From Alloprevotella sp. (GTDB lineage Bacteria; Bacteroidota; Bacteroidia; Bacteroidales; Bacteroidaceae), in assembly GCA_017476545.1 (NCBI GenBank), contig JAFUZP010000039.1, forward strand, positions 1-56,141: a DNA stretch of 56,141 nucleotides. Direction: 5' to 3'. Each line of letters starts with the position of its first letter. Within the stretch, counting starts at the first letter, position 1. The notes beneath the pieces were generated by a model. That model made no database searches and was not told where the DNA came from. It worked only from the letters and a program-made list of their open reading frames with translations. The position numbers were made by a program, and so were the translations under genes. Below, in pieces: positions 16,342 to 45,274 of this stretch.

Positions 16342-16854
16342 TCATGAGTCATAACTAAGATGTATCCTATATCCTTTCCCCAAATAGCAGAGGTTGAAAT
16401 CCGTCCAAGAGGTATAGGAGCAACCAGTGGCGTCATACACAACATCAAAGTCGCAGCCGGGAAGTATGGTGCCATAAAGCAAAACTTCTCTCAAAGTCAC
16501 GCCATCGCCCAAGTCATCGTATAGTGACACTTCCCTCCATAGACCATCAGGCCCAGCTGCCGATCCACTTCCAAAGTCAGACCATTTATCAATGATTAAT
16601 TGAGGGTCATTGCAGAACCGGCGAGTGCCCACTAATGTTGAAGTAGAAGAATTATATTGTGGGCGTAGATATATAAACGTGTCATACCACCTTGTTCCTG
16701 GTATCACTTCACAGATTGCTTGCCTGCTCGCGGCAAGCAGTTGGGTTTCAAGTTTGAGCACCTGCATCCGGGGCGGCACGTAGGCCTTCGTTCCCTTCTC
16801 CGCAGACTGCTTCGCGCGAAGTGCCCGCTCCTGTTCTCTGTTTTGTTGTTGCAT
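16342..16854 (-). CDS. Unassigned protein, Y-x-x-P / LLA-x-S family, member 1
   Basis: 170 residues. The N-terminal 45 residues hold a polar start (MQQQNREQERALRAKQ) and the motif KAYVPPRMQVLKLETQLLAASR (residues 23-44 in shortened form: Y25, P27-28, V32, L39-L40-A41-A42-S43). Two other proteins in this window (18206-18853 and 44129-44734) share this motif. After it the sequence is variable, with five Cys and many aromatic residues, no clear membrane segment and no known domain. It might be a leader-like element followed by a variable body, but no processing enzyme is encoded nearby. A promoter at 17190-17220 gives a leader of about 330 nt with an internal terminator. Confidence 0.6.
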   Translation of the reverse strand: MQQQNREQERALRAKQSAEKGTKAYVPPRMQVLKLETQLLAASRQAICEVIPGTRWYDTFIYLRPQYNSSTSTLVGTRRFCNDPQLIIDKWSDFGSGSAAGPDGLWREVSLYDDLGDGVTLREVLLYGTILPGCDFDVVYDATGCSYTSWTDFNLCYLGKGYRIHLSYDS

Positions 16855-16907
16855 AATCGTATAGGTTTTAGTTTGACATAATGTTTGCTGTCGTCACGTA
16901 CCTATAC

Positions 16908-16942
16908 AAAAAAGCGTGGAACCTAATTGCTGCCCGTTCCAC
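16908..16942 (-). terminator. Intrinsic terminator inside the leader of the gene at 16342
   Basis: On the minus strand GTGGAAC (16942-16936) and GTTCCAC (16922-16916) form a 7-bp stem with a 13-nt loop, followed after GC by TTTTTT (16913-16908). It lies 54 nt before the start codon and downstream of the promoter, so the gene needs read-through or antitermination. Confidence 0.75.
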
Positions 16943-17189
16943 ATTCTGAGGCTCTCGCATTGCCCGGTACGATAAAACGAGCAACGCAGAGGCCCACGTA
17001 GTCAGCCGCGCACGACACCCTACAGCGGAGAAGCTACTGGGGGCGTGTACGGATATGCCACAGGGACATCTACTGCTGCCTAGTTCCGATCGTACTGGAA
17101 ATTTGCGAGATTTCAGAATGTCGTGAACAAGCGCTGAGTAAACGCCTTTATGTATAGTGTGCGGCCGCCGCCAAGGCGGGAGCACGGAG

Positions 17190-17220
17190 CAAAGGTAGGG
17201 AAAAGGGCTGGGACGGGCAA
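17190..17220 (-). promoter_or_regulatory. Promoter of the gene at 16342
   Basis: On the minus strand TTG (17218-17220), 20 nt, perfect TACCTTTG (17190-17197). It predicts a leader of about 330 nt, similar in length to the leaders of the two paralogs. The leader holds an open frame of about 105 codons (17185 to 16868, GTG start) whose last 30 codons, from an internal ATG, run across the terminator stem; I cannot tell whether it is translated. Confidence 0.7.
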
Positions 17221-17253
17221 GGGCAGGACGCAGAAATTCCCCTGTCTGCGGTA

Positions 17254-17284
17254 TTGCAGGTGCGGGCGGAAGGGCGTACCTTCG
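17254..17284 (+). promoter_or_regulatory. Promoter of the ZIP transporter
   Basis: TTG (17254-17256), 20 nt, TACCTTCG (17277-17284), a TTCG variant of the -7 box. It diverges from the promoter at 17190-17220. Confidence 0.65.
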
Positions 17285-17310
17285 CGGCGTAAACTAGATC
17301 CTCCTCCGCT

Positions 17311-18090
17311 ATGACTGCAATACTCTTGGTACTTTTCATTCCCCTGCTGGGCACGATGCTCGGCTCGGCCTTTGTTTTCTTCATGAAAGGCGACATGTCG
17401 CCACGCGTGCAGAAGTCGCTGCTCGGCTTCGCCTCCGGCGTGATGGTGGCAGCCTCCGTGTGGTCGCTCCTCATCCCGGCGATGGAGATGGAGGAAGGTC
17501 GCGGGGCGTGGTCGGTGCTGCCCGCTGCCATCGGTTTCCTGCTTGGCATGGGTTTCCTGCTCTTGATTGACGAGGTCACGCCCCACCTGCATCTCGGCAC
17601 GGACAAGCCCGAGGGTCCGCGTTCCCGCCTCTCGCGCACCGCCATGCTCGCCCTGGCCGTCACCATCCACAACCTGCCCGAGGGCATGGCTGTCGGCGTG
17701 GTCTTCGCGGGTGCCGGGGACGGCGTGGCAGGCCTGTCGCTGGCCAGTGCGGTGGCTGTGTCGCTCGGCATCGCTATCCAGAACGTCCCTGAAGGTGCCA
17801 TCATCTCCATGCCCATGCGCGCGGCGGGCAATTCGCGCTGGCGTTCCTTCCTTCTGGGCAGCCTGAGCGGTGCGGTGGAGCCCGTGGGCGGCCTTGCCAT
17901 CGTGCTACTGGCCTCGCTGATGACGCCCGCGCTGCCCTACATGCTGGCCTTCGCCGCCGGTGCCATGTTCTACGTCGTTGTGGAGGAACTCATCCCCGAG
18001 GCTTCGCAGGGCGATCACACGAACCTCGGCACGGTGGGCTTCGCGGCGGGTTTCGTGTTGATGATGGTGCTCGACGTCGCTACTGCCTGA
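17311..18090 (+). CDS. ZIP family divalent metal transporter
   Basis: A 259-residue inner-membrane protein with about eight hydrophobic segments. Segments four and five carry the paired metal-site motifs HNLPEGMAVG and QNVPEGAIIS, the hallmark of ZIP proteins such as ZupT, which import zinc, iron or manganese. A short acidic/His loop (DEVTPHLHLG) precedes segment four. The ATG at 17311 is 26 nt beyond a clear -7 box. It converges with the gene at 18206. The metal is not predictable. Confidence 0.92.
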   Translation: MTAILLVLFIPLLGTMLGSAFVFFMKGDMSPRVQKSLLGFASGVMVAASVWSLLIPAMEMEEGRGAWSVLPAAIGFLLGMGFLLLIDEVTPHLHLGTDKPEGPRSRLSRTAMLALAVTIHNLPEGMAVGVVFAGAGDGVAGLSLASAVAVSLGIAIQNVPEGAIISMPMRAAGNSRWRSFLLGSLSGAVEPVGGLAIVLLASLMTPALPYMLAFAAGAMFYVVVEELIPEASQGDHTNLGTVGFAAGFVLMMVLDVATA

Positions 18091-18124
18091 CGTACCCATA
18101 CGCCCTTGCAAACCGCTGGAAGCA

Positions 18125-18169
18125 GCTATGTTGCAGGAACGCCGCGTTCCAGTCCGGAGCTGACATAGC
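18125..18169. terminator. Nested hairpin between convergent genes
   Basis: Outer arms GCTATGT (18125-18131) and ACATAGC (18163-18169) enclose a second stem GGAACG/CGTTCC (18136-18141 and 18145-18150). It lies in the 115-base gap between the convergent ZIP gene and the gene at 18206. No T tract; a shared terminator is inferred. Confidence 0.45.
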
Positions 18170-18205
18170 ACTCAACTCACGGTACAGTCCTATGCCCCCA
18201 CCCCC

Positions 18206-18853
18206 TCATCCCCACAACTTGAAGAGAAACCGCTGGCCCCGGTAGGTTCCGATAACGTCGTCGTCGCAGTTCTCGCCGGAGAACTGCGCGTTGAGCAAGA
18301 AGTCATCTATGGGCCAGTCTGCACCTTCAATAGTGACCGAAGGGTTCGCGATAAACCATTCTGGGGATAAGGAACGTCTATCTAAAATACCAGCAGCTCC
18401 GGCCGCGAAAAGCTTGTAGCACATGCTTTCAGTGAAACTGTTCCACCTGCTGGAGGGATACTTATCCTCAATAAATCTGGTCCAGGCATCAAGCATGTTA
18501 CCGCCCCCGCCGAGGTAATCACAGGGATTAAAAGAGCCGAGTTCGACTTCGTCGGAATAGTGATAGCAGCACCCAGCTTCACAGGGCTCGGAGATTATCC
18601 TGCCATCGACTTCAACAGGGTCGATAATATCGAATATATTGGCGTATAAATACGGATCCAAAGTCTGCCAGAGCACCGTGACCGTCACGGGCGGCACCCC
18701 ACCGCTCACCGCCAGCAGCCCGCAGCCAAGCGGGAAGACCTGCGTCGTGGGCTTCACGTACTTCTTCGCTCCCTGCGGCGCGGACTCCGCGCACGTCTCC
18801 GCTGCCGGCACGTCGGCGGGCAGCGCATTGTTCTTGTTCATTCTTTCGTCCAT
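18206..18853 (-). CDS. Unassigned protein, Y-x-x-P / LLA-x-SG family, member 2
   Basis: 215 residues. After a polar, Ala-rich N-terminus comes KKYVKPTTQVFPLGCGLLAVSGG (residues 31-52: Y32, P35, V39, L46-L47-A48, S50-G51-G52), shared with the proteins at 16342 and 44129. The body is Cys- and aromatic-rich. Its C-terminal GADWPIDDFLLNAQFSGEN and IGTYRGQRFLF align with GANWDVDDFLNNADIQ and YGTYMGQPF of the protein at 44129, so these two are full-length homologs. No signal peptide or known domain is seen. The start at 18853 is favoured because ATTAAA and TAAG precede the ATG at the same distance in the paralog. Expression must pass the hairpin at 18986-19028. Confidence 0.65.
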   Translation of the reverse strand: MDERMNKNNALPADVPAAETCAESAPQGAKKYVKPTTQVFPLGCGLLAVSGGVPPVTVTVLWQTLDPYLYANIFDIIDPVEVDGRIISEPCEAGCCYHYSDEVELGSFNPCDYLGGGGNMLDAWTRFIEDKYPSSRWNSFTESMCYKLFAAGAAGILDRRSLSPEWFIANPSVTIEGADWPIDDFLLNAQFSGENCDDDVIGTYRGQRFLFKLWG

Positions 18854-18982
18854 TTCTTAATACTTTAATTTATTTATAATAGCATTTGTTTATTACCGCC
18901 CACACCATTCCCAAGCCTCCCCCTCTCGGGGGGACGGGAGGGGGGCTGGAGGGGCTTCGGGGCATGGGGCTTGTATGCACAC

Positions 18983-19028
18983 AAAAGCGGCGCACCGCAA
19001 CCCACCGAAGGGAGCGCGATGCGCCGCT
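18983..19028 (-). terminator. Terminator-like hairpin between small ORF and gene 18206
   Basis: On the minus strand AGCGGCGCA (19028-19020) pairs with TGCGCCGCT (18994-18986), followed by TTTTGTG. It begins 24 nt beyond the stop of the 41-codon ORF, as in the copy at 44867-44909. Confidence 0.7.
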
Positions 19029-19052
19029 CAATGCGTACTCGTACGTCTATAA

Positions 19053-19178
19053 CTACTTGATAACCAAAGCGTGAGGGGGGGTAATTCGGACACTTCCCGC
19101 CCCGTAAATACGGGAAGAGCCGGCCTCCGCAACGGCGGAGGCGGCTATACCGTTATTATATATATACGCGTAAGGCAT
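19053..19178 (-). CDS. Conserved 41-codon small ORF (leader peptide candidate), copy 1
   Basis: ATG 19178 to TAG 19053 encodes 41 residues beginning MPYAYIYNNG, with SRIYGAGSVRITPP near the end and a final ALVIK. A second copy at 44934-45059 has the same length without indels, the same stop codon, 105 of 126 identical bases and 29 of 41 identical residues. It starts about 17 nt after the predicted transcription start and ends 24 nt before a terminator-like hairpin. It may be a regulatory leader peptide or a small protein in its own right. There is no signal peptide. A longer frame up to 19259 is excluded because it would overlap the promoter. Confidence 0.6.
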   Translation of the reverse strand: MPYAYIYNNGIAASAVAEAGSSRIYGAGSVRITPPHALVIK

Positions 19179-19201
19179 AATCAAGTATCTGATTTCCGCC
19201 G

Positions 19202-19232
19202 CAAAGATAGGGAAAGTTATCCAACAGGCCAA
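19202..19232 (-). promoter_or_regulatory. Promoter of the small-ORF cassette, copy 1
   Basis: On the minus strand TTG (19230-19232), 20 nt, perfect TATCTTTG (19202-19209). The same geometry is found at copy 2 (45083-45113). A four-unit palindromic array starts 35 bp further upstream. Confidence 0.8.
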
Positions 19233-19267
19233 GACTGGAGAAGGGAAATACCGCCCCAAGGATTTCC

Positions 19268-19347
19268 TGGCCCTATAGTCAGGAAGAACTAACCCTATAG
19301 TTAGGAAAAAGTAACCATAGGGTTAGGAACGGCTATCCCATGGGGTA
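19268..19347. repeat. Four-unit palindromic array, 22-bp period
   Basis: Cores at 19268 (TGGCCCTATAGTCA), 19290 (TAACCCTATAGTTA), 19312 (TAACCATAGGGTTA) and 19334 (TATCCCATGGGGTA), exactly 22 bp apart. It lies between the divergent promoters of the small-ORF cassette (left) and the alcohol dehydrogenase (right). Confidence 0.85.
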
Positions 19348-44128: not shown

Positions 44129-44734
44129 TTAACAGCGCGGGTTAGTCCTAGTTTTGATTACAGCGGAATTGGTCTCAATGGTGCACGTGAAGGGCTGCCC
44201 CATGTACGTGCCGTAATAGTAATAGTAGCCGCTGTCATAGGCGCACTGGATGTCCGCGTTGTTGAGGAAGTCATCCACATCCCAGTTGGCGCCGGTAATC
44301 TCCGCGCGCGGCGCCGGTATCGCGGCAAACTCGTCAAGGATTTCGGGTAAGGACTTATAAGAACCACACATCTCCGTCTCGCAGATACGACCTTCGACCG
44401 TGTTATGAAACTCTGTATAATCATCGACCAACCCCTGAGCCGCGCGGGTCCAGTAACTATTGGGGGGAGTACCGCAGAAGCCGCCAGAAGAACCGAAGAG
44501 CTCCGTAGGAAGGGAGCAGTAATCACTAAAATAATAATCCATAGCGGGGATGAAGAGGCGGACGGAGATGGGCTGCCCGCTCGTCGCCAGCATCCGCTGC
44601 GGGCCCAGAGGGATGACCTGCATCGTAGGCGGCACGTACTTCTTCTTAACCGCAGCGGGAGCCGCAGCCTCCGCAGCAATTGGATTCCCTTCAGCGGCGC
44701 ACGGCGCGCCACTCACTTTCACTTTCTCGTTCAT
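44129..44734 (-). CDS. Unassigned protein, Y-x-x-P / LLA-x-SG family, member 3
   Basis: 201 residues. A polar, Ala-rich N-terminus leads to KKYVPPTMQVIPLGPQRMLATSG (residues 31-53 in shortened form: Y33, P35-36, V40, M48-L49-A50, S52-G53), the motif shared with the proteins at 16342 and 18206. The body is rich in Cys, Tyr and Asp; GANWDVDDFLNNADIQ and YGTYMGQPFTC align with the end of the protein at 18206. No signal peptide, membrane segment or known domain. It lies downstream of the small ORF at 44934-45059 and its hairpin, under the promoter at 45083-45113. Function unknown. Confidence 0.65.
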   Translation of the reverse strand: MNEKVKVSGAPCAAEGNPIAAEAAAPAAVKKKYVPPTMQVIPLGPQRMLATSGQPISVRLFIPAMDYYFSDYCSLPTELFGSSGGFCGTPPNSYWTRAAQGLVDDYTEFHNTVEGRICETEMCGSYKSLPEILDEFAAIPAPRAEITGANWDVDDFLNNADIQCAYDSGYYYYYGTYMGQPFTCTIETNSAVIKTRTNPRC

Positions 44735-44863: not shown

Positions 44864-44909
44864 CAAAGCGGCGCACCGCTCCCCCTCGACAGGGGCGCAG
44901 TGCGCCGCT
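44864..44909 (-). terminator. Terminator-like hairpin between small ORF and gene 44129
   Basis: On the minus strand AGCGGCGCA (44909-44901) pairs with TGCGCCGCT (44875-44867), with an inner CCCCT/AGGGG stem, and is followed by TTTGTG. It begins 24 nt beyond the small-ORF stop, as at copy 1. Confidence 0.7.
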
Positions 44910-44933: not shown

Positions 44934-45059
44934 CTACTTGATTTCCAGCGCGTATGGGGGGGTAATTCGGGCACTTCCCGCCCAGTAAATACGGGCAAAG
45001 TCAGCATCCGCTACTGCGCAGGCCGGCATACCTATATTATATATATACGCGTAAGGCAT
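44934..45059 (-). CDS. Conserved 41-codon small ORF (leader peptide candidate), copy 2
   Basis: ATG 45059 to TAG 44934 encodes 41 residues beginning MPYAYIYNIG, with ARIYWAGSARITPP near the end and a final ALEIK. Compared with copy 1 (19053-19178) there are 21 base differences and no indels; 6 of the 18 changed codons are synonymous and several others are conservative (E/D, V/A, I/M). The stem that the GC-rich middle could form in copy 1 (CCTCCGC/GCGGAGG) is not kept here, which favours peptide over RNA-structure conservation. Starts about 17 nt after the predicted transcription start. Confidence 0.6.
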   Translation of the reverse strand: MPYAYIYNIGMPACAVADADFARIYWAGSARITPPYALEIK

Positions 45060-45082
45060 CTTCAAGTCACTGGTTACGCCTG

Positions 45083-45113
45083 CAAAAGTAAACAATAGTT
45101 GCCAATAGGGCAA
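45083..45113 (-). promoter_or_regulatory. Promoter of the small-ORF cassette, copy 2
   Basis: On the minus strand TTG (45111-45113), 20 nt, perfect TACTTTTG (45083-45090). The palindromic array starts 36 bp upstream, nearly the same distance as at copy 1. Confidence 0.8.
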
Positions 45114-45149
45114 GCGGTGGGGACGGAAAAGTATCAGCAGGGAAAATCC

Positions 45150-45229
45150 TGACCGCAGGGTTAGGAAGAACTAACCCTATGGTTACGGCGGCGTGACCAT
45201 AGGGTTAAGAACGGATACCCCAAGGGGTA
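45150..45229. repeat. Four-unit palindromic array, 22-bp period
   Basis: Cores at 45150 (TGACCGCAGGGTTA), 45172 (TAACCCTATGGTTA), 45194 (TGACCATAGGGTTA) and 45216 (TACCCCAAGGGGTA), exactly 22 bp apart, between the buk stop and the promoter at 45083-45113. Confidence 0.85.
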
Positions 45230-45274
45230 CGGCGGACTAGTACAAGAAGTAAGAGGCGCGCCGCTCCCCCTACC

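Follow-up and report, generated by a model that had tools for sequence, protein, structure and literature searches.

In a single Alloprevotella sp. genome, a 41-codon open reading frame (ORF) and the hairpin behind it recur about 40 times, and together they probably constitute, though with real room for doubt, a translated, cis-acting 5' leader cassette that controls a hypervariable gene family. This reading builds on computed observations: the architecture of the cassette, its copy number, the lack of an internal −7 promoter box, and the conservation of both the hairpin and the open frame.

Two copies of the cassette lie in the window, by which we mean the whole 56,141-nt stretch of DNA that was analyzed (contig JAFUZP010000039.1). 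Their features are as follows.

19202..19232, minus strand: promoter of copy 1, TTG-N20-TAnnTTTG; such an element is present in 31 of 31 gene-linked copies
19053..19178, minus strand: leader ORF of copy 1 (type I), 41 codons
19075..19081, minus strand: C7 run within the copy 1 ORF (codons ACC CCC CCT), from the sequence and the alignment
18986..19028, minus strand: hairpin of copy 1, 18 pairs in the consensus, 24 nt past the stop
18206..18853, minus strand: family gene downstream of copy 1, 215 aa, N-terminal YVKPTTQVFPLGCGLLAVSG
45083..45113, minus strand: promoter of copy 2
44934..45059, minus strand: leader ORF of copy 2 (type II), 41 codons
44956..44962, minus strand: C7 run within the copy 2 ORF, from the sequence and the alignment
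44867..44909, minus strand: hairpin of copy 2
44129..44734, minus strand: family gene downstream of copy 2, 201 aa, N-terminal KKKYVPPTMQVIPLGPQRMLATSG

Recomputation upheld what an earlier note had described for this pair. Both ORFs are 126 nt long and end in TAG, with 105 of 126 bases and 29 of 41 residues identical, and the two copies share the promoter geometry TTG-N20-TAnnTTTG and a hairpin that starts 24 nt past the stop. The downstream proteins are also more diverged than the leader ORF, as had been claimed, with 33% identity between the two in the window (alignment A2).

Searching the 41-aa peptide against the genome it comes from (G000; 1.98 Mb in 46 contigs, 80% complete) gave 42 matches at E ≤ 10, 39 of them at E ≤ 1e-4, and the window pair, being 2 of 42 same-genome matches, is beyond chance. 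One extra core match, on contig C38, was judged not to be a leader. The ORF is kept in 37 of the 42 copies, at 126 nt in 34 of them and at other lengths in 3: L033 has a 42-aa ORF with its ATG 3 nt further upstream and a different promoter region, and L039 (39 aa) and L041 (38 aa) keep the ORF despite diverged middles. Among the other copies, L030 has lost its start (2-base deletion), L036 (G000:C46:311-418) has C20 in place of C7 and a shifted frame, L037 and L040 carry stops within the ORF, and L042 is cut by a contig end. The peptides range from a type I extreme (YNNGIAAS...PPHALVIK) to a type II extreme (YNIGMSAS...PPYALGIK), with intermediates between, and R31, T33, P34, and P35 are nearly invariant, giving the consensus motif RITPP.

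At 31 of the 42 loci, the leader is followed by a complete gene of one paralogous family (158-234 aa), which starts 230-366 nt past the leader ATG. The family gene is cut by a contig end after L023 and L036 (C4:3-140 and C46:3-122), the contig runs out at L005, L025, L026, and L042, and a truncated family-gene remnant lies downstream of L030. L009 heads a PAP2-family protein, behind an apparent remnant of the family's first residues, L010 heads a Clp-protease-family gene, and no family gene was found after L037 and L040. A profile of the family gave 50 matches in the same genome, including contig-end fragments and genes without this leader, and none of the 31 downstream proteins had a Pfam match at E ≤ 0.01. 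Leader types and gene types go together, with a pairing that is not strict: position 9 of the leader is Ile for all 10 YVPP/YVSP genes, versus 14 Asn, 6 Ile, and 1 Lys for the 21 YVKP genes.

Mean DNA identity over the 465 pairs of the 31 full-gene loci is 0.64 in the promoter region and 0.64 in the 5' UTR, 0.83 in the ORF, 0.79 from the stop to the hairpin, 0.46 in the spacer, 0.65 in the first 165 nt of the gene, and 0.26 in the remaining gene. The conserved unit is the ORF plus the hairpin, followed by the N-terminus of the gene.

Elements matching the consensus TTG-N17-24-TAnnTTTG are found upstream of the leader ORF in 31 of 31 gene-linked loci; TAnnTTTG is the −7 element of Bacteroides in the excerpt considered of a published account (PMC7366714). 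Between the leader stop and the gene, this box occurs in 0 of 31 gene-linked loci, so that the gene is apparently dependent on read-through of the hairpin. From the placement of these elements, transcription of the gene appears to begin at the promoter that precedes the leader. The promoter ahead of the ORF, the absence of an internal box, and the full family gene at 31 loci bear out the description in the earlier note of a leader ahead of a main gene.

The hairpin could be compared in 37 of the 42 copies (36 distinct; L025, L026, and L042 are cut by contig ends, and L037 and L040 are broken). Over its 18 bp, 97.4% of 648 cells are paired, against 31-59% in slid controls, and both-sided changes occur at three pairs. 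Shuffles equalled the hairpin in percentage paired in 15 of 500 cases and in covariation score in 101 of 500; because covariation is not above that of shuffles, the case for the hairpin rests mainly on the 18 kept pairs and the slid controls. Its energy over the 37 copies averages −36.6 kcal/mol (range −42.1 to −24.9). Within the whole leader, the arms have a mean pairing probability of 0.97 and a fold lacking the hairpin is on average 29.4 kcal/mol less stable, and as a result no competing antiterminator fold is predicted (nested folds, computed without ribosome or protein). The earlier note had reported a T-run after the hairpin and had offered attenuation by termination as an explanation. 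The T-run holds for the two copies from which it was described, but not as a general feature: the longest run past the stem is two T in 16 of the 37 copies, three in 8, four in 7, five in 5, and six in 1, such that 13 of 37 have at least four. A simple terminator scan, which accepts uninterrupted stems only, listed neither of the window hairpins, each of which has a mismatch in its stem. This is a strong hairpin, not generally a textbook intrinsic terminator. With no general U-tract and no competing fold, attenuation by termination is not established, and classical terminator/antiterminator switching is not supported.

In the mechanism we propose, transcription would start about 20 nt before the 41-codon ORF, judging by the position of the −7 box, and a ribosome would translate the ORF and stop 24 nt before the very stable 18-bp hairpin. 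RNA polymerase would have to pass this hairpin to reach a gene without a visible promoter of its own, and the hairpin would thereby control read-through. The conserved front of some 30 to 40 paralogous cassettes consists of the leader, the hairpin, and about 55 codons from the start of the gene; beyond that point, the gene is hypervariable. Most likely, the leader determines or conditions how strongly the family is expressed, through a partial block at the hairpin on which translation of the leader or a trans factor may act. Candidate routes are partial termination, ribosome-dependent unfolding, and an RNA-binding factor.

Support for translation comes from a parsimony-based substitution test on 31 distinct intact 126-nt ORFs from the 42 copies, leaving out L025, L026, and L009 (one-base insertion past the ORF); the same test on 32 copies agrees. 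Among 219 inferred changes in the ORF frame, there are 0 stops against 7.0 ± 2.6 expected (P = 0.001), a comparison that is favorable by construction because the copies were chosen for intact ORFs. The ORF is, in addition, present in all of the 31 copies picked by their downstream gene. A synonymous excess across copies, which the earlier note had put forward as a sign of coding, was found in the ORF frame (87 versus 64.9 ± 6.6 expected, P = 0.001) and also in the offset-2 frame (81 versus 64.6 expected, P = 0.003). Non-synonymous changes in the ORF frame number 132 versus 143 expected, the offset-2 frame has 7 stops versus 8.8 expected, and frame +1 has 46 synonymous changes versus 57.3 expected and 11 stops versus 6.5 expected.

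The same 41 codons also carry evidence for an untranslated structured RNA leader, in which the internal hairpins and the 18-bp hairpin would bind a protein, sRNA, or ligand and the open frame would be incidental. Compared with shuffles of its codon order, the ORF has the more stable fold (mean z −2.4, with 22 of 31 below −1.65), the 4-fold codons CCT, GCG, GGT, and CGA are invariant in 34 of 34 copies, and the leader's codon adaptation of 0.40 falls at the 1.1th percentile of gene windows, whose median is 0.685; the downstream genes in the window likewise score low (0.35-0.52). We consider this alternative doubtful, if worth serious thought, in view of the missing stops, of the ORF kept in L033, L039, and L041, and of the weak covariation that RNAalifold returned for the whole leader (term −0.9, double changes in 4 of 38 pairs, on an alignment from which the 3' arm of the hairpin was cut). 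In Rfam 15, only tmRNA matched the window at the gathering threshold, and nothing matched 16800-19300 at E ≤ 1. The leader peptide that the earlier note took to be read in frame thus gains from the lack of stops and from the three diverged copies, and loses by the poor choice of codons. Our reading is that the frame is probably read and that the exact peptide sequence would matter little, while the RNA sequence would matter too.

We think it unlikely that the ORF encodes an independent 41-aa protein with its own hairpin terminator, co-transcribed as a partner of the variable protein. A full-length frame and stop in 34 copies and the invariance of A4, I6, Y7, G10, A15, L38, and I40 over 36 leader sequences would suit such a protein, but amino-acid constraint is mild by the non-synonymous count above, the codons used put the ORF near the 1st percentile among gene windows, the T-run past the stem is just two long in 16 of 37 copies, and 4-fold sites show no added freedom to vary (identity 0.81 versus 0.83 for the whole ORF). 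Variable sites are distributed 17/22/22 over the three codon positions in 34 intact ORFs. On these grounds, the small protein that the earlier note had offered as its second option is a weak candidate.

It is very unlikely that the leader is a block of homology without a regulatory role, kept alike by gene conversion or duplication and allowing the variable genes to recombine: the weak correlation between leader ORF similarity and similarity of the leader's own gene within type I (Spearman 0.24, 210 pairs), the hypervariable gene body (0.26), and similar 4-fold identities within type I (leader 0.81, gene N-terminus 0.79) would fit, but the hairpin pairs are kept, and the promoter and 5' UTR (0.64) are far more diverged than the adjoining ORF (0.83) and the interval from stop to hairpin (0.79), which suggests selection rather than block homogenization.

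The translated leader could in principle be elaborated by its C7 run (C CCC CCN), as a slippery or phase-variable site at which a −1 shift, whether made by the ribosome or brought about by a one-base difference in run length, would lengthen the ORF across the hairpin; translating ribosomes would then melt the hairpin, and the variable gene would be turned on. If true, this would be a frameshift-controlled read-through switch common to the whole variable protein family; we hold it to be highly improbable. No stop interrupts the −1 frame up to the end of the hairpin in 37 of 37 copies, and the +1 frame closes ahead of the hairpin in 36 of 37. From the C run on, the −1 frame has 1 stop versus 5.5 expected (P = 0.03) and a synonymous P of 0.019, values that are uncorrected for 15 region-by-frame tests. 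Beyond the hairpin, in the G+C-rich spacer, all frames are mostly open. In 31 of 31 cases, the −1 frame stays open until no more than 50 nt remain before the gene ATG, and this was dropped as evidence for a frameshift product because frames 0 and +1 behave nearly alike past the hairpin (30/31 and 26/31), which makes the openness there a matter of composition. The run itself varies (C20 in L036, C12 in L039, C8 in L041 and L035, C6 in L033 and L038); 5 of the 31 gene-linked copies do not have exactly C7, and the leader frame is kept in those five.

A third member of the gene family in the window is headed by a leader of another type.

16342..16854, minus strand: third family gene of the window, diverged, with a second-type leader
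about 16880..17210, minus strand: second-type leader before the 16342 gene (16880..17160 is the query stretch), also in relatives

This second-type leader is laid out as a promoter, the conserved stretches GCGTTTAC..CTCGCAAATTT..GCGTTGCTCGTT..GGGCAATGCGAGAGCC, a hairpin, and TTTTTT; in an alignment of four copies from the same genome, the six-T run comes after the last conserved stretch and before the gene. Seven matched pieces lie at 5 places in this genome, DNA matches occur in 25 of 60 relatives, and the second-type leader often stands before exported-looking proteins, judging by a reading of their N-termini. That one gene family has two unrelated leaders of similar layout favors a regulatory role.

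The 41-aa leader peptide was found in 0 of 60 relatives, 36 of them of the same genus, and profile A3 gave only two partial matches elsewhere, both weak (E 0.002 and 0.008), in a sample of 393 genomes of the order that included its own. None was confirmed in viral contigs, GTDB contigs, phages, or plasmids. Six GTDB matches to a 20-base core pattern were judged not to be leaders, with about as many expected by chance (an estimate from collection size), as were a single congener match to a 19-base core and three partial congener DNA matches of 25-33 nt. The family profile matched 0 of 40 relatives at E ≤ 1e-3, and its N-terminal part alone gave partial matches in 9 of 45 relatives at E ≤ 0.1. 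Among the representatives searched, the leader thus appears limited to one species, and the collection scans may omit the same or very near genomes. The earlier note had held that a lack of homologs beyond this genome would weaken its case; no convincing one turned up among the genomes searched, but about 40 copies did within the genome. In the titles and abstract openings of the literature, we recognized no described repeated leader of this kind, which is not proof of absence in print.

Leader-peptide transcription attenuators of the trp/ilv/erm type resemble the cassette in having their own promoter, a short ORF, a hairpin past the stop, and a gene apparently reached by read-through only; here, in contrast, there are no general U-tract and no predicted antiterminator, and the genes controlled would be many paralogs of unnamed function. 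The comparisons that follow refer to excerpts of the reports cited. In Bacteroides thetaiotaomicron, short ORFs resembling attenuation leader peptides occur within long 5' UTRs; they share the TAnnTTTG promoters but are named for individual mRNAs, whereas here one leader occurs some 40 times (PMC7366714). RAPP-like arrest peptides are usually upstream ORFs of secA, secDF, or yidC, with YwcI found upstream of sacT, and likewise combine a short upstream ORF with Arg and Pro-Pro near the C-terminus; the motif here is RITPP, however, not RAPP, RGPP, or RAGP, and the downstream gene is no recognizable sec or yidC gene (PMC10987492). The roc mRNA leader of B. thetaiotaomicron controls the amount of downstream protein independently of the promoter, comparable to the setting of downstream output by a 5' leader proposed here, but it is a 54-nt leader of one gene with no repeated cassette, unlike the many cassettes here (PMC10294740).

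Should the leader prove regulatory, one short translated leader, instead of one operator, would govern some 30 to 40 paralogs that are scattered and hypervariable, and one stimulus could fix how much of the whole repertoire is made. Families of variable surface proteins have shared control regions in a comparable layout. The function of the unnamed protein family would, moreover, become testable through one leader. More generally, a tiny conserved ORF can abound in one genome and be absent from congeners, and so escape comparative annotation.

Several other sequence elements accompany the cassettes. A sigma-70-like match (TTGA..-N18-TATAAT, 10/12) lies inside the conserved leader start of both window copies (19155-19184 and 45036-45065, minus strand) and is probably due to chance if the genome belongs to the Bacteroidota. 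A G+C-rich, hairpin-like stretch (CCTCCAGCCCCCCTCCCGTCCCCCCGAGAGGGGGAGGC; 18890-18960 in the window, minus strand) separates leader from gene in many cassettes of type I and is missing from L003, L008, L015, and L021. Upstream of many leaders (19260-19340 and 45145-45235 in the window, minus strand) lie palindromic repeats close to CCTAACCCTANGGTTASTT, frequently with a spacing of 22 nt. With up to 2 mismatches, they give 88 forward and 65 reverse matches in the same genome, where a site may count on both strands; a single match was seen among 36 relatives, and the repeats also occur away from leaders.
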